DNA of 64,000 bases. Origin: Streptomyces europaeiscabiei. GTDB taxonomy: Bacteria; Actinomycetota; Actinomycetes; Streptomycetales; Streptomycetaceae. This document shows positions 11,467 to 17,746 of the stretch, one piece after another. The notes beneath the pieces were generated by a model, which saw only the letters and a list, made by a program, of their open reading frames with translations, was not told where the DNA came from and did no database searches. The stretch covers positions 2,291,001 through 2,355,000 of the forward strand of contig NZ_CP107841.1 in NCBI RefSeq assembly GCF_036346855.1, read 5' to 3'. The position numbers and the translations under genes were made by a program. Each line of letters begins with the position of its first letter. Position 1 is the stretch's first letter.

Positions 11467-12759
11467 TCAGGGCCGGTAAGGAAGCTGTGGAACGTCGAAA
11501 CAGGTGTCGTTCATGTCCCCCTGGCCCACCCACCCCTTACCGTCCTGCCAGCGGGCCACCGACACACACGTCCGGCGTGTCCTCGGGGGCTCGGTGAGCC
11601 GCTCGAAGCGGACGGGCACGAGCAGTCCGTCGGCGCTGTAGGGCTCGTCGCGGTTCATGAACCGGTCGACACACGCGCGCGTCACACCTTCCTCGTCCCC
11701 CGCGCACGAGCGCGCCGCGTCCGTGAACCACATGGCGGCCGCCCAGCCCTCCAACTGCCACTGGGAGTGCGTCTTCAGACGTTTCGTCGCGTCCCGGAAC
11801 TCCCGTACGGCCTCGTCGGCGTCGTCCGCGTGGTTGCGGCTGGAGCCGGTGGCCCACAGGGCGTTGCGACAGCGCGGGGCGTCCTTGTAGTCCTCGGCGA
11901 CCGTGGAGGTCCAGTTCTGCACATTGGTGACCTTGGCGGTGAGTTCGACGCCCGCCTCGTCCATCGCCTCGCAGAGCCGGGCGTTGCCGTGGCCGTCGAT
12001 GGCGTCGAAGACCAGGTCGACGCCCTGTTCCTTGATGTCGGCGGCGGCCGCGCGGAAGTTGGGCAGCGCGAAGTCGACCTGCTCGGTGACCACTTCGTAC
12101 CCCTCGGCCTTCAGCCCCTGCACGACCAGGCGCGCGTACGCGGCCGACGCGGACTGGTTGTACGAGACCACGGCGGCGGTACGGGCGCCGTGCGCACGCT
12201 TGAAGTAGCGGTAGACCTCGGTGCCGCCGTACTGCCTGCCGTCCCAGCCGGTCGTGCCGCTGCGGGGCGCGAGGCTGCCGTAGACGCTGTACAGGTACGG
12301 GTACGTGTCGTACGCCGGGCCGATGGGCTGGCCGCCGATGTCGGGCACGCGCGCGCGTGCGACACGGGAGGCGCCCGCGTAGTCGAGGGCGGTGGTGGCG
12401 ACGAGCGCCACCACCTCGTCCTCCTCCACTAGTCGGTGCACGCACTCGTTGTTGCCCACGCCGCTGCCGCCGTCGTCGCACTCCCGCACCTCGACGCGGC
12501 GGCCGTCGATGCCCCCGCGCGCGTTGAGCGCGGCGAAGTAGGCCTTCGCCCCGTCGCGCGGCCCGGTGAAAGCGGTACCGCCGACGGGGCTGGTGACGCT
12601 GGTGATGATCCCGACGCGCAACGGCTCGGCACTCGCCGGTGCCGTGGTGGCCCCCCGTCCCTCGAAGTCGCTCTCCGGAAGCCGGCTCCCGCAGGCCGTC
12701 GCCAGCAGGAGCAGCAGGCCTGCGGCAGCCGTCTCAGCAGCCCGGGCCCGGTGTCGCAT
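11467..12759 (-). CDS. Substrate-binding lipoprotein of a Liv-type ABC transporter
   Basis: This is the extracellular solute receptor (periplasmic-binding type I, Leu/Ile/Val class) for the divergent permease genes. It has 430 aa. The N-terminal signal ends in a lipobox LLLATACG, so the protein would be lipid-anchored through that cysteine. The fold signature starts LRVGIITSVTSPVGGTAFTG and continues with DGRRVEVRECDDGG. Its start overlaps the end of the upstream lipoprotein gene by 26 bp, implying coupling. The ligand is probably an amino acid or other small amide, but cannot be assigned. Confidence 0.85.
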   Translation of the reverse strand: MRHRARAAETAAAGLLLLLATACGSRLPESDFEGRGATTAPASAEPLRVGIITSVTSPVGGTAFTGPRDGAKAYFAALNARGGIDGRRVEVRECDDGGSGVGNNECVHRLVEEDEVVALVATTALDYAGASRVARARVPDIGGQPIGPAYDTYPYLYSVYGSLAPRSGTTGWDGRQYGGTEVYRYFKRAHGARTAAVVSYNQSASAAYARLVVQGLKAEGYEVVTEQVDFALPNFRAAAADIKEQGVDLVFDAIDGHGNARLCEAMDEAGVELTAKVTNVQNWTSTVAEDYKDAPRCRNALWATGSSRNHADDADEAVREFRDATKRLKTHSQWQLEGWAAAMWFTDAARSCAGDEEGVTRACVDRFMNRDEPYSADGLLVPVRFERLTEPPRTRRTCVSVARWQDGKGWVGQGDMNDTCFDVPQLPYRP

Positions 12760-13321
12760 TGCCGCTCAGCGCGACCAGTCCGCACAGCGTCTTGACGGAG
12801 ACCTTCCAGGTGCCGTCCTGTTCGACGGCCGTGCCCGCCGCGTCCGGCAGAGCCGTGGCGCCCTCCAGGAGCAGGGTGTACGTCACGTCGGCGTCGGTGG
12901 CCGAGGTGAACACGACCTTCTGGACCTCGGCCTCCACCTGTCCGCCGCGTTCGTCACCGCTGAACGCGGCGAGGACCGGGCCCATCTCGTCGCCGTTCTC
13001 CAGCACGGCCTGTTTCTCCTTGGTGGAGGTGGCCGGGTCGAAGAACGTCTTCCAGTTCTTCTCGATCTGCTTCTCGGCCGCCTCCGTGTCCGCGGGACCG
13101 CTCGCGCTCACGGTCGCTTCGGCGGGTTCGCTGGTCGTCCGTTCCACGGACGGCGTGGGCGGCGCCGTGTCGCCGCCGCCACCGCTGTCGTCACTGCACG
13201 CCGCGAGGGCCGGGGCGAGGAGGAGGACGAGGGCGGCCGCCAGGGCCGTACCCCGTCCCGCCGCCCGTGGGCCGCGGCCCCGCCGTCCGTTCGCCCGCCT
13301 GAGGTCGCTCCCGAGAACCAT
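12734..13321 (-). CDS. Small secreted lipoprotein, Liv locus
   Basis: This is a 195-aa predicted lipoprotein. A basic N-terminus precedes a hydrophobic stretch and the lipobox APALAACS, then a Ser/Thr/Pro/Gly-rich spacer. A roughly 110-residue domain follows (EKQIEKNWKTFFDPATSTKEK onward), with the look of the small extracellular NTF2-like domains found in actinobacterial lipoproteins. A longer reading frame to 13426 exists, but ATG 13321 begins the basic signal region. It is the first gene of a two-gene unit with the binding protein. The function is unknown, with an accessory role in the transporter inferred from position. Confidence 0.75.
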   Translation of the reverse strand: MVLGSDLRRANGRRGRGPRAAGRGTALAAALVLLLAPALAACSDDSGGGGDTAPPTPSVERTTSEPAEATVSASGPADTEAAEKQIEKNWKTFFDPATSTKEKQAVLENGDEMGPVLAAFSGDERGGQVEAEVQKVVFTSATDADVTYTLLLEGATALPDAAGTAVEQDGTWKVSVKTLCGLVALSGNATPGPGC

Positions 13322-13443
13322 CTGGCTCACCACCGGGTGTCGGTCCGGGCGGCTCGCGCCCGGTTCTTTCAGGGTCAGCTTGCAGAAGGCATAGTGCAAG
13401 CCATCGGCTGGGATGGACAGACACACGACGTGTGGGAGCCCCG

Positions 13444-13938
13444 ATGCGGACAGCCCGACTGCGGACCGTGCACCCCGTCCTCTGGGCCGGCTGGGCCGCG
13501 CTCGCCGGCGGCGCGGTGCTGTGCGTCATCGGCTGGTACGGCGTCTCCGGCGAGCGTTTCGCCGAACGGCAGCTCCCCTACCTGGCCTCCTGCACGGTCC
13601 CCGGCGCCGCGCTGATCATCGCGGGCGCGGTCCTCCTCGCCCACGGCCGGAACGCCCTGGCCGCCACGCGCGTCGAGGAGTTGTACGGCCTCCTGGTCGC
13701 CGCCGAGCCCTCCGACGCCGACGCGTCCGGGCAGGCGGCCGTGCCCCTGGCCACCAGCGGCAGCCTGCTGATGGTGCCCGGCGGCACCCTATGGCACCGC
13801 GCGGACTGCCCCCTGGTGGCCGGCCGGGCGGAGGCGGTGCCGGTGGACTCCCGGGTGCTGAGCGGCGGCGAACTGCGGCCGTGCCCGATCTGTGAAGCGC
13901 CCTCCGGGAGCGACCCCGCCGAGCCCCCGGAGGGCTGA
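13444..13938 (+). CDS. Small membrane protein with C-terminal Cys/His metal-site motif
   Basis: This 164-aa protein has two N-terminal hydrophobic helices (about residues 12-35 and 49-68) and a soluble tail. The tail ends in WHRADCPLV, then LRPCPICEA about 25 residues later. The H/C spacing resembles the zinc sites of Ada-like or nuclease-linked domains (H..DC ... PC..C). ATG 13444 has GGGAG five bases upstream; an in-frame GTG at 13432 is the alternative. It heads the plus-strand Liv operon, and its stop overlaps the permease start (TGATG). The function is unknown, and a regulator or assembly factor for the transporter is a guess. Confidence 0.78.
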   Translation: MRTARLRTVHPVLWAGWAALAGGAVLCVIGWYGVSGERFAERQLPYLASCTVPGAALIIAGAVLLAHGRNALAATRVEELYGLLVAAEPSDADASGQAAVPLATSGSLLMVPGGTLWHRADCPLVAGRAEAVPVDSRVLSGGELRPCPICEAPSGSDPAEPPEG

Positions 13939-16900
13939 TGGCGTCCCTGAGTTACGACCTCACGCTGGCCGGACTGTCGGTCGGCAGCGCGGCGGCCCTC
14001 ACCGGAATCGGCCTGATCGTGACGTACCGGGCGACCGGAGTGCTCAACTTCGCGCACGGGGCGATCGCGATGGTGTGCGCGTATCTGCTGCGCCAGTTCA
14101 CCGTGGAGTGGGGGTGGCCCCTCTGGCTCGGCGCCCTCGTGACCCTGTTCCTGGTCGCCCCCGCCGTCGGCCTCGCCCTGGAACGCCTCGTGTTCCGCCC
14201 GCTCGCCGTGCTCGGCAACGACCCGGCACAGACCCTGGTCGCCTCGATCGGCGTCTTCGTCCTCCTGGTCGGCGGGGCCGCGCTGCTGTGGGGCCAGGGG
14301 GCGCGGGACGACGCCCCGACGTTGGTGTCGGCCGACCCGTGGGATCAGCTGGCGGTGGCCGTGGCGATCGCGGCGACCGTGGGTGCGGTCACCCGCTGGA
14401 CTCGCTTCGGCCGCGAACTCCGTGCCGTCGTGGACGACCGGTCCCTCGCCGTCCTCGGCGGCATCGACGCGGACCGGGTCGCCGCCGCGGGCTGGGCGTT
14501 CGGCTCGTTCACGGCGGGTCTGACGGGCGTCCTGCTGGCCCCCTACGTACGCCTCGACCCGTACGGCATGCCGCTGCTGGTGATGGAAGTGGTCGCCGTG
14601 GCGGTCGCCGCCCGGATGCGCAGCCTCCCGGTGGCCGTGCTGGTCGCACTGGGCATCGGGATCGCCCAGAGCCAGCTGACCCGGCTCCACCCGTCGGGCT
14701 GGGCGGAGCCGTTGCTCCAGGCCGTCGGCGCCAACCTCTTCGTCGTGGCCCTCCTGATCGCGGCCCTCGTCCTGCCCGGCGTGGGCACCCGCGACGTGCT
14801 GCCCCGCGCGGCGACCGCGCCGGTCCGCGCACCCGTCGGAGCGTGGATCGTGGCGCTTCTGCTGTTCCTGATCCCGCTGGGCTTCGCGGGCGAGGACCTG
14901 CACACGGCCGTCCAGGTACCGGCGCTGGGCGTGGTCCTGCTCTCCCTGGTGGTGGTGACGGGCAGGGGCGGCCAGATCTCCCTGGGCCAGGCGGCGTACG
15001 CGGGTCTGGGCGCGCTCTTCACGGCACTGCTGTCGGCCGGCCGCCTCCCCTTCCTCCCCGCGCTCCCCGAACTGACCGCCCTCCTGGTGGCCGTACTCCT
15101 CGTGGCCCCCCTGGGCCTGCTGACCGGCTGGCCCGCCATCAGCCGTCACGGTCTGGCGCTGGCCCTCGCCACGTTCGCCGTGGGCGTCGGCGTGAGCCGC
15201 TTCGTCTTCGCCCAGCCGTACGCGACCTCGGGCCTCACCCTCACCCGCCCCCCGGGCTTCGAGGGCGACCGCGCCTACTACGTCCTGGAGCTGGGTCTGC
15301 TGTCCGCGGCCCTCCTGGCCACCCACGCCCTGCGCCGCGGCCGCACGGGCCGGGCCCTCGCCGCCATGCGCGACCACGAGTCGGGCGCGTCGGCGGCAGG
15401 CGTACGCGTCCCCTCGCTGAAGCTGGCGGCGTTCGTGACGGGCGCCGCCCTGGCCGCCCTCGGCGGCGGCATGCTCGCCATGGGCGTCCGCGCCTTCGAC
15501 CCCACCGCCTACGACCCCGTCCGCGGCCTTCTCTGGTTCGCCGCGATCGTCGTCCTGGGCGCCGACAGCACGCTCGGCGCGCTCGCGGCGGCCGCCCTGC
15601 TGGTCGGCCTGGACGCGGGCACCGAGGGCGGTGTGGCCGCGGCGGTCGTCGGCGTCCTGGCGGTACTGGTGGGCCGTTTCCCCGGCGGGCCCTACGAGGC
15701 GGTCCGGGCGGGATCCGCACGCCTGCGCCGGGGAGCGGGGGCCCGACGCGGGCTCACGGCGGCGGGGGTACGGGCTCGGGAGCGGGTGCGCGCCGGTGTG
15801 CCGGGGTCGGTCGCCCCGGGCCGGGGTGCGGCTTCGACGCGGGGCTCTGCACAGGACGCGAGCGGCGCATGGGCGAGGCGGGGCGTGGGTGCTGCCACAG
15901 GGGCGACGCTCGCCGCGGCGGACGGATCGATGCGGGACGGCGGCGTCGCGGGTGCGGCTGAGCAGGACGCGCCCGGCAGGGCCGACCGGGCCGACGGCCC
16001 AGCGGTGGGCAGGAGCCCGGCCGTGCGCCGCGACGGGCCCGGCCTAACGGCCCCGGGCGGCCGGCGGAGCCGTGGCGGAATCGGTCGACGGCGGCGGGCA
16101 TCGGCGCCGGATCGACCAGCGCCGCAGGACCAGGGACAGCCCGCCGAGAGGAAGCCGGGAATGGCGGAGCCCTCCGAGAGAAGGCCGGGAATGGCGGAGC
16201 CCTCCGAGAGAAGGCCGGGAGTGACGGAGCCCTCCGAGCGTGGCGGGGCGCGGGCCGGCACGGTGGCGCAGCCGTCCCCTCCCGGCCTCGACTTTCCCGC
16301 CGGGCACCGGCACGGGACCGGCCCGGCCTCCCTTCCTCGGCCGGCCACCACCCCTGCCCCCGCCCCGCGCTTCCCTGGCGCCGTCCCTCCTCCTGCTCCC
16401 TCGCTCCAAGCCCGCCGCCTCCGCCTCGGATACGGCGGGTTCACGGCCCTCGACGGTGTCGATCTCGACGTCCTCCCGGGGTGGGTCAGTGCGGTGGTGG
16501 GCCCCAACGGTGCCGGGAAGAGCACGCTCTTCCACTGTCTGACCGGGACGCTGCGGCCCGGCACCGGCCAGGTGCGCCTGGGCGGGCGGGACATCACGCG
16601 GCTGCCCGCGCACGCCCGCACCCGGCTCGGGATCGCCCGGACGTTTCAACAGCTGGCTGTCTTCCCGTCGTTGACCGTGGCCGAGAACGTGCGGGTGGGC
16701 GCCGAGCAAGGGCGGGTCGCCGATCCGGAAGCCGTGGAGGCGGCGTTGCGGCTGTTCGGGCTGGACGGGGCCGTGCGGACGGCGCCGGCGGCCGGGCTGC
16801 CGACCGGGACGCTGCGGCGGGTCGAGCTGGCGCGGGCGCTCGCCGGGAGCCCGCGCGTGCTGCTGCTCGACGAACCCGCCGCCGGACTCGACACGGCCGA

Positions 16901-17108
16901 GGTGGCCGCCCTCGCCCGCGTGCTGCGCGCCCTCGCCGACGACGGCATGGCCCTGCTGGTCGTCGAGCACGACCTCGACCTCGTCGCGGACCTCGCGGAC
17001 GTCGTGCACGTCATGGCGGCGGGCCGGATCGTCACCTCCGGCCCCGCCGACCACGTCCTCCGTTCACCGGGCACGCTCGACCCGCACGACCCGGCGGTCG
17101 AACGATGA
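13938..17108 (+). CDS. Fused Liv ABC transporter: LivH and LivM permeases plus LivG ATPase in one chain
   Basis: This 1056-aa polypeptide combines three subunits normally made separately. Residues 1 to about 290 form a LivH-like permease (GLIVTYRATGVLNFAHGA near the start). About 300-590 form a LivM-like permease (GRGGQISLGQAAYAGLGA is the conserved loop). About 590-820 is a Gly/Ala/Arg/Pro-rich linker with tandem repeats, and about 821-1056 a LivG-type ATPase. Walker A GPNGAGKST (about residue 853), Walker B VLLLDEPAAGLD and the H-loop VVEHD are intact. The signature expected as LSxGQ is instead LPTGTLRR. The stop overlaps livF (ATGA). It probably imports amino acids or related amides with the lipoprotein receptor encoded divergently. 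Confidence 0.88.
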   Translation: MASLSYDLTLAGLSVGSAAALTGIGLIVTYRATGVLNFAHGAIAMVCAYLLRQFTVEWGWPLWLGALVTLFLVAPAVGLALERLVFRPLAVLGNDPAQTLVASIGVFVLLVGGAALLWGQGARDDAPTLVSADPWDQLAVAVAIAATVGAVTRWTRFGRELRAVVDDRSLAVLGGIDADRVAAAGWAFGSFTAGLTGVLLAPYVRLDPYGMPLLVMEVVAVAVAARMRSLPVAVLVALGIGIAQSQLTRLHPSGWAEPLLQAVGANLFVVALLIAALVLPGVGTRDVLPRAATAPVRAPVGAWIVALLLFLIPLGFAGEDLHTAVQVPALGVVLLSLVVVTGRGGQISLGQAAYAGLGALFTALLSAGRLPFLPALPELTALLVAVLLVAPLGLLTGWPAISRHGLALALATFAVGVGVSRFVFAQPYATSGLTLTRPPGFEGDRAYYVLELGLLSAALLATHALRRGRTGRALAAMRDHESGASAAGVRVPSLKLAAFVTGAALAALGGGMLAMGVRAFDPTAYDPVRGLLWFAAIVVLGADSTLGALAAAALLVGLDAGTEGGVAAAVVGVLAVLVGRFPGGPYEAVRAGSARLRRGAGARRGLTAAGVRARERVRAGVPGSVAPGRGAASTRGSAQDASGAWARRGVGAATGATLAAADGSMRDGGVAGAAEQDAPGRADRADGPAVGRSPAVRRDGPGLTAPGGRRSRGGIGRRRRASAPDRPAPQDQGQPAERKPGMAEPSERRPGMAEPSERRPGVTEPSERGGARAGTVAQPSPPGLDFPAGHRHGTGPASLPRPATTPAPAPRFPGAVPPPAPSLQARRLRLGYGGFTALDGVDLDVLPGWVSAVVGPNGAGKSTLFHCLTGTLRPGTGQVRLGGRDITRLPAHARTRLGIARTFQQLAVFPSLTVAENVRVGAEQGRVADPEAVEAALRLFGLDGAVRTAPAAGLPTGTLRRVELARALAGSPRVLLLDEPAAGLDTAEVAALARVLRALADDGMALLVVEHDLDLVADLADVVHVMAAGRIVTSGPADHVLRSPGTLDPHDPAVER
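16155..16240 (+). repeat. 30-bp tandem repeat in the Liv fusion linker
   Basis: Nearly three in-frame copies of a 30-bp unit lie back to back (16155, 16185, 16215), encoding 10-residue units that contain MAEPSERRPG. The third copy has two changes. It lies in the disordered linker between LivM and LivG, so length change would not break the frame. Confidence 0.9.
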
Positions 17109-17746
17109 CTCTCCTCTCCCTCCGCCACGCCCGCGTCCGATACGGACCCCTGGAAGCCCTGCACGGCCTCACCCTCGCCGCCCCGGGCCCCGGCCTCACC
17201 GTGCTGCTCGGCCGAAACGGCTCCGGACGTACGACCGCGCTGCGGGCCCTCGCCGGAACGGTCCCGCTGTCCGGCGGTGCCGTCGTGTGGGACGGGGTCG
17301 ACATCACCCGGACGCCCGCGTACGAGCGCGCCCGGCGCGGCCTCGTCCTCGTACCGGAGCGCCGGGCCGTCTTCGGTTCGCTCACCGTGCGCGAGAACCT
17401 CGAACTGGCCGCGCCGGACCTCTCGTACGCCCTGGACGCCTATCCGTGGCTCGACCCCCTGCTCCCCCGCCGCGCCGGCACCCTCTCCGGCGGCGAGCAG
17501 CGCATGCTCGCCCTCGCCCGCGCCCTGTCGGCCCACGCGCGGGTCGTCCTCGTCGACGAACCCACCCAGGGCATGTCACCCGCGGTCGCGGCCCGGACGT
17601 ACGAGCTGCTGAGCGGCCTCCACACCTGTGTGGTCGTCGCCGAGCAGCGCCTGCCGCCGGGGCTGCGCGGCACGCCGGGCGCCCTCGTGTACGAACTGCG
17701 ACGCGGGGAACTGGCGTTCGGCGGCGAGGCGGCGGAACTCGCCTGA
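17105..17746 (+). CDS. livF: LivF-type ABC ATPase with degenerate Walker A
   Basis: This is the second nucleotide-binding subunit of the Liv-type transporter, 213 aa (LivF is usually about 235). It pairs with the LivG domain of the preceding fusion. The Walker A reads GRNGSGRTT, so the invariant lysine is arginine. The signature LSGGEQ and Walker B VVLVDEP with its catalytic glutamate are intact, and VVAEQ at the switch position is normal for LivF. The start is coupled to the fusion gene by ATGA. The consequence is a transporter with one consensus and one degenerate ATP site. The family is certain, and reduced ATP hydrolysis at this site is inference. Confidence 0.9.
   Translation: MTLLSLRHARVRYGPLEALHGLTLAAPGPGLTVLLGRNGSGRTTALRALAGTVPLSGGAVVWDGVDITRTPAYERARRGLVLVPERRAVFGSLTVRENLELAAPDLSYALDAYPWLDPLLPRRAGTLSGGEQRMLALARALSAHARVVLVDEPTQGMSPAVAARTYELLSGLHTCVVVAEQRLPPGLRGTPGALVYELRRGELAFGGEAAELA

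Follow-up and report, generated by a model that had tools for sequence, protein, structure and literature searches.

A 64,000-nucleotide stretch of Streptomyces europaeiscabiei DNA, here called the window, encodes an importer of the branched-chain-amino-acid type (Liv-like) that probably has only one catalytic composite ATP site. We base this view on the sequences of its two ATPase subunits, LivG and LivF, and on analogy with characterised transporters. In a dimer of ATP-binding cassette (ABC) ATPases, each ATP site combines the Walker A motif of one subunit with the signature motif of the other. The consulted part of PMC8403869 states the same pairing of Walker A and opposite signature for ABC dimers. 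In the importer described here, key residues are altered in one composite site only, where Arg42 of LivF stands in place of the Walker A lysine, while the other site is complete.

The complete site is formed by the consensus LivG Walker A, GPNGAGKST (16500–16526, + strand, as are all motifs that follow), the LivG Walker B, VLLLDEP (16857–16877), the LivG H-loop histidine, within VEHD (16968–16970), and, opposite these, the consensus LivF signature LSGGEQ (17483–17500). The odd site sets the LivF Walker A, GRNGSGRTT (17210–17236), in which the codon CGT at 17228–17230 encodes Arg42, against the deviant LivG signature LPTGTLRR (16797–16820); three of the five residues of LPTGT are not those of LSGGQ. 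The LivF Walker B, VVLVDEP (17543–17563), keeps its aspartate and catalytic-type glutamate. At the LivF H-loop position Gln181 (17645–17647) occurs instead of histidine, and at the Q-loop position there is Glu85, which brings the deviations of the odd site to four rather than two. An earlier note on this DNA had reported the Walker A and signature motifs of both subunits, and reading them from the DNA bears it out; the site pairing that it inferred is the established one, and its description of one fully consensus site beside another that is degenerate on both faces holds here and across the orthologues.

On the sequence evidence, Arg42 is a maintained state under purifying selection, not a product of decay. 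Six peptide patterns, none including the Walker A, were used to find 80 loci from named genomes, and all 80 have arginine at the LivF Walker A lysine position. Together with 29 further loci and 60 regions, most of them from more distantly related genomes, in which LivF identity falls to about 49%, these make up 169 orthologue loci, 168 of them with arginine. The lone exception, L161 (genome G016, of the same family), has a cysteine, giving the Walker A GPNGSGCTT. Arginine is likewise present in all of the best 120 of 4273 matched protein relatives, the top named ones being S. europaeiscabiei proteins with 95–96% identity. The LivG signature is almost as constant: LPTGTLRR occurs in 76 of the 78 readable loci among the 80, with LATGTLRR and LSTGTLRR in the other two. 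Of 297 genomes sampled from the family, 97 have a match at E ≤ 1e-45, which makes the system widespread without being universal.

For the wider comparison, profile scoring identified a LivF/LivG pair in 253 of 283 loci (195 with arginine, 57 with lysine, 1 with cysteine at the LivF Walker A position), and removal of loci retrieved twice and of repeated copies of one LivF left 220 distinct pairs (169 Arg, 50 Lys, 1 Cys). Loci that lacked a pair were L006–L030, which encode other ATPases, L004 and L142, which are one and the same paralogue from the S. europaeiscabiei genome with both domains scored as LivG, and L035, L235 and L257. The 169 distinct Arg pairs use five arginine codons (CGT 83, CGC 54, CGG 30, CGA 1, AGA 1), and the 50 Lys pairs use AAG 48 times and AAA twice. 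Among 300 random pairs drawn from 79 Streptomyces loci, the median ratio of nonsynonymous to synonymous substitution rates (dN/dS) was 0.23 for LivF (quartiles 0.21–0.26, median dS 0.53) and also 0.23 for the LivG domain. In the Arg pairs the Walker A columns of LivF have a mean modal identity of 0.95 against 0.79 for LivF as a whole; 161 of the 169 retain the A-loop tyrosine, and all 169 the Walker B Asp-Glu and the LSGG of the signature. Their LivG partners have the Walker A lysine in 163 of 164 readable cases and the Walker B Asp-Glu in 167 of 168. The two exceptions, L045 and L195, are frame-shifted assemblies that hold GPNGAGKST and LLLDEPA, respectively, in another frame; we kept these loci, with motifs in two frames, unaltered. 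The LivG signature was unreadable in L068 and L148. It is the range of codons, the low dN/dS and the conserved P-loop, A-loop and Walker B that lead us to regard Arg42 as maintained. Several critical positions are changed at once, as would be expected of a pseudogene, of relaxed selection or of a sequencing error, the last of which the earlier note had raised. However, arginine in 168 of the 169 orthologue loci, its five codons, the dN/dS of about 0.23 and the conserved operon described below reduce this explanation to a negligible probability, and for the arginine itself it is refuted.

Much of what looks odd in the second site is ordinary for the Liv-type ATPases sampled. A histidine at the LivF H-loop position occurs in 0 of 219 pairs (169 Arg and 50 Lys). 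The residue found there is glutamine in 164 Arg pairs, with arginine in 4 and glycine in 1, and glutamine in 45 Lys pairs, with proline in 5; the solved LivF-type structure 1ji0 also has glutamine. The LivG H-loop histidine is present in all 167 readable Arg pairs and all 50 Lys pairs, and the SGG of the LivF signature in all 219 pairs. The LivG signatures of the Lys pairs include LPYGD, LSYGD, LSTGQ, LAHGQ, LPTGA and similar forms, with a GG form in just 1 of 50 (L258), which contradicts the assumption in the earlier note that LSxGQ is usual for LivG. At the fifth signature position, Gln, Asp and Glu are absent from LivG in 31 of the 50 distinct Lys pairs, 25 of which are of the TG type, and from all 167 readable Arg pairs. 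Mean modal identity over the five positions is 0.93 in the Arg systems and 0.68 in the Lys pairs, the Lys set being the more diverse. It is a convenience sample, composed of the nearest relatives from genomes of the class, nine plasmid regions, of which eight gave a pair, two paralogues from the S. europaeiscabiei genome and the lysine copies from another family, f45, of the same order. The class-level search matched 298 of 393 genomes, of which 30 loci and 28 chosen regions (20 + 8) were read, so other Liv subfamilies may also contain arginine.

The S. europaeiscabiei genome itself holds three other Liv-type systems, each with a lysine in the LivF Walker A and each following the same rule for H-loop and signature. 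A survey of 25 other ABC ATPase loci taken from the best matches in this genome (L006–L030) found a Walker A lysine in the parsed domain of 24; L026 could not be parsed. A second nucleotide-binding domain (NBD) with arginine in place of this lysine occurs in one of these loci, L012, outside the domain parsed in the survey. Another, L019 (G000:C1:9553060), encodes a double ATPase whose second NBD has GVEGNGQAT, with glutamine for lysine, and no Walker B Asp-Glu.

Given a LivF without the H-loop histidine and a LivG that rarely has LSGGQ, the site built on the LivF Walker A is generally the weaker one among the sampled Liv proteins, as far as motifs can tell. These ATPases are therefore already lopsided, and LPTGT is less odd than it first seemed. 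By their sequences, the LivG signature and LivF H-loop of the window are ordinary for the sampled systems, and what is new is that a Liv-type lineage has a fixed arginine P-loop, reached by a stepwise route.

That route can be followed in part. The LivG signature change looks older than the lysine-to-arginine replacement, because 25 of the 50 distinct Lys pairs already combine a Walker A lysine with a TG signature that lacks Gln, Asp or Glu. The same pairs tell against the 'complementary defects' of the earlier note if these are understood as coupled, and they carry one change without the other, which the note itself had named as grounds for refutation. Coupling is rejected in this direction; the reverse combination, arginine with Gln, Asp or Glu at the fifth position, occurs in none of the 167 readable Arg pairs. 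Within the sample, the two changes are nested rather than coupled.

The arginine probably arose later, once, within the order of Streptomyces. We built a LivF tree of 98 rows with the Walker A columns omitted, by a quick method that leaves many branches weak. The Arg rows fall inside a clade (support 98 by the Shimodaira–Hasegawa-like approximate likelihood ratio test, SH-aLRT) that also holds 11 Lys members, whose LivG partners have a signature of the [PS]TG[TA] kind or LPIGT. Left free, the LivF and LivG trees each need two arginine changes. Trees in which the Arg and Cys rows were held together nevertheless scored higher than the free trees, by 13.4 log-likelihood units for LivF (approximately unbiased test, p-AU 0.67) and 20.0 units for LivG (p-AU 0.75), and we therefore prefer a single origin to two independent ones. 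Family f45 has both states: an arginine copy in seven genomes (L264–L270) and a lysine copy in five (L271–L275), with both read in four genomes. The LivG signature of the lysine copies is LPTGTMRL, or LPIGTMRL in L271, and their LivF has a proline at the H-loop position (VVLAEP). Our reading is that LivF lost its H-loop histidine first, the LivG signature then changed and lysine gave way to arginine last; the tree is consistent with this order, the direction depending on the choice of outgroup.

We also considered a link between the arginine and the fusion of LivG to the permeases and rejected it: arginine is found with fused and with unfused LivG. Among 177 loci in which the start of the LivG frame lies inside the locus (repeats kept), the Arg pairs comprise 87 fused, 44 with LivG alone and 1 LivM-LivG fusion; 43 of the Lys pairs have LivG alone and 1 has it fused, as does the Cys pair. 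Shifted frames account for some of the 'alone' cases, including L045 and L068.

The closest likeness among known systems is to the human sterol exporter ABCG5/ABCG8, a heterodimer with one consensus and one degenerate site, the latter combining a TG-type signature with arginine for lysine. In the parts of PMC7756502 and PMC8403869 consulted, the ABCG5 signature is ISTGE, the ABCG8 Walker A is GSSGCGRAS, and transport depends on the other site only; PMC7756269, also consulted in part, states the pairing of the lysine-to-arginine change with a changed signature. The resemblance is confined to the ATP sites. The system in the window is a binding-protein-dependent importer in which BPD_transp_2 (PF02653) permeases precede the NBD and share one chain with LivG. 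ABCG5 and ABCG8 have a membrane fold different from that of Liv importers, with the ABCG-type membrane domain behind the NBD. Yeast Pdr5, in the section of PMC7756269 seen, has cysteine for the Walker A lysine of its degenerate site, as does the exception L161; Pdr5 also loses the catalytic glutamate, which LivF retains.

Importer ATPases with one degenerate site are known too. RbsA and NupO of Bacillus subtilis have a second Walker A without lysine and at least one deviant signature, according to the part of PMC11466899 consulted, and the double ATPase L012 of the S. europaeiscabiei genome has GHNGAGKST and LPMGQ in its first NBD and, in its second, GLIGSGRT, which faces that LPMGQ, and FSGGN. 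Unlike these, where both NBDs lie in one polypeptide, LivG and LivF are encoded by separate, overlapping genes and are of the Liv type, and we infer from this that the LivF arginine is an event independent of the arginine in RbsA-type ATPases, whose importers form the CUT2 family. With ordinary Liv/Urt importers (the paralogues L002–L004, 1ji0, and 1g6h/1gaj, which is MJ1267, of the LivG type), the system shares its gene content, the SGG of the LivF signature, a mostly glutamine H-loop in LivF, and a LivG with H-loop histidine and, only seldom, an LSGGQ signature. It departs from them in the LivF Walker A, which has lysine in the three paralogues, in 1ji0 and in the 50 distinct Lys pairs. A literature search that covered few subscription papers found none on ATP-site asymmetry in Liv-type importers. 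PMC6703430, in the part covered, names LivF/G only in connection with the C-terminus of LptB. For DppABCDF, the covered part of PMC12136057 points to a figure that sets DppD and DppF against consensus and degenerate sites; the stem 'asymmetr' is absent from its main text.

One complete site beside one whose Walker A, signature and H-loop are all altered, together with the analogues ABCG5/ABCG8, RbsA/NupO and L012, leads us to propose the following mechanism. Catalysis would take place at the site made of the LivG Walker A, Walker B and H-loop and the LivF LSGGEQ signature, and ATP binding and hydrolysis there would power the uptake of a substrate that the adjacent binding protein delivers. The opposite site, with Arg42, the LivG LPTGT and the LivF H-loop glutamine, would be specialised and non-hydrolytic, and probably still holds nucleotide, forming the half of the dimer that stays fixed. 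We infer the loss of hydrolysis, the nucleotide occupancy, the direction of transport and the substrate.

Several points weigh against this proposal. The Walker B Asp-Glu and, in most Arg pairs, the A-loop tyrosine are kept in LivF, so the site is not simply eroding and some hydrolysis with arginine may occur. Nor does the predicted single-chain fold of LivF decide either way; the model (predicted local distance difference test score, pLDDT, 93.8) is a nucleotide-free monomer with an ordinary NBD fold, in which the P-loop helix begins at residue 42, and the closest solved relative is 1ji0. The sequences share ancestry, so the counts given above are not independent. Retained nucleotide is opposed by ABCG8, in which the arginine P-loop is displaced, by about 10 Å, and ATP binding is reduced (PMC8403869, consulted in part).

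It could be that Arg42 simply substitutes for the lysine and that both sites hydrolyse ATP, the changes being conservative and near-neutral. Arginine preserves the charge, and the glycine framework of the P-loop, the A-loop tyrosine, the Walker B pair and the ordinary modelled fold would all fit. We consider this unlikely, however: the facing signature is off LSGGQ at most of its positions and the H-loop histidine is missing from the same site, arginine at this position in ABCG8 accompanies an inactive site (PMC8403869, PMC7756502, each in the part consulted), and a near-neutral residue should vary, whereas a single change, to cysteine, is seen among the 169 orthologue loci. A variant of the one-catalytic-site proposal has the degenerate site binding no nucleotide at all, with Arg42 in a structural role, for example contacting the LivG signature loop. 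The displaced P-loop of ABCG8 and the fairly conserved LivG signature of the Arg systems speak for this variant, and the tyrosine and Asp-Glu conserved in LivF are hard to explain without nucleotide, although the Walker B residues may instead persist for dimer contacts. We give the variant a substantial chance while leaning against it. As to the occupancy of the degenerate site, the kept A-loop and Walker B residues favour nucleotide and the ABCG8 structure opposes it.

The genes around the two ATPases fit a Liv-type importer. The fusion gene (13938–17108, + strand) is an open reading frame of 1056 amino acids in which two BPD_transp_2 permease domains (two stretches matching Pfam PF02653) are followed by a low-complexity linker and an ABC ATPase domain (PF00005), giving the order LivH-LivM-linker-LivG. 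The linker between LivM and LivG contains a 30-bp unit repeated 3.4 times (16138–16238), and in 89 fused loci the distance from the permease match to the LivG domain varies between 67 and 386 residues. The livF gene (17105–17746, +; 213 amino acids, PF00005) overlaps the fusion gene by ATGA; its start at 17105 is a chosen one within a longer open frame, 16481–17746. Directly 5′ of the fusion gene lies a small conserved protein of 168 amino acids (13432–13938, +), which had no match in Pfam and NCBIfam searches. On the opposite strand are a lipoprotein-like gene (12734–13426, −), matching the 'WKL family lipoprotein' model NF053527 below threshold (62.8 bits, cut-off 105), and beyond it a divergent gene for a substrate-binding protein of the Peripla_BP_6 type (11467–12759, −; PF13458, E 3.9e-44).

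The top NCBIfam matches of both ATPases are Urt/Liv models, at scores below the curated cut-offs: 98.2 of 441 bits for LivF (NF008626) and 141.9 of 285.8 for UrtE in the case of LivF, and 151.1 of 362 for LivG (NF008449) and 156.1 of 304.1 for UrtD in the case of LivG. Because all four equivalog cut-offs are missed, we call the system Liv-like, with a substrate that is not assignable. Two BPD_transp_2 domains, ATPases of the LivG and LivF types and an adjacent binding protein of the Peripla_BP_5/6 type are nonetheless those of the Liv-type class, also labelled HAAT.

These neighbours recur in related loci, which were chosen by length from two sets (66 of 80 and 54 of 60 loci). The binding protein is matched in 66/66 and 54/54, the lipoprotein-like gene in 65/66 and 53/54, the 168-residue protein in 65/66 and 54/54, and the permease in 65/66 and 54/54. 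Family f45 contributes 12 loci, several of them with an early end; the permease was found in 11 and the binding protein in 4, all of them arginine copies. In 168 of 169 orthologue loci LivG is encoded on the same strand as LivF and no more than 1.5 kb upstream of it; in L035 the contig begins at LivF. This arrangement bears on whether LivF and LivG are partners at all. A LivG that a long linker joins to both permease domains might pair with itself or, in a genome with three other Liv-type systems, with another LivF. The gene overlap and the constant proximity of LivG and LivF argue against such a mismatch, as do the other Liv loci of the genome, each of which encodes its own two ATPases, and we judge it very improbable.

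More broadly, the Liv-type family may be built around one working ATP site. The lineage in the order of Streptomyces would then be the end of a stepwise series, from H-loop loss through loss of the LivG glutamine to the lysine-to-arginine change, which arrived independently at an ABCG5/ABCG8-like pattern and uses one ATP per cycle; we put this forward tentatively, at somewhat less than even chances. The system raises the questions of whether one hydrolytic site is enough for an ABC importer and what role the second site then has, questions that in our judgement have mostly been studied in exporters. The arginine and lysine sister copies in the same four f45 genomes, and the lysine relatives with either kind of LivG signature, offer natural comparisons. 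The conservation of Arg42 suggests that in importers, as in ABCG8, arginine in place of the Walker A lysine can be stable and maintained by selection.

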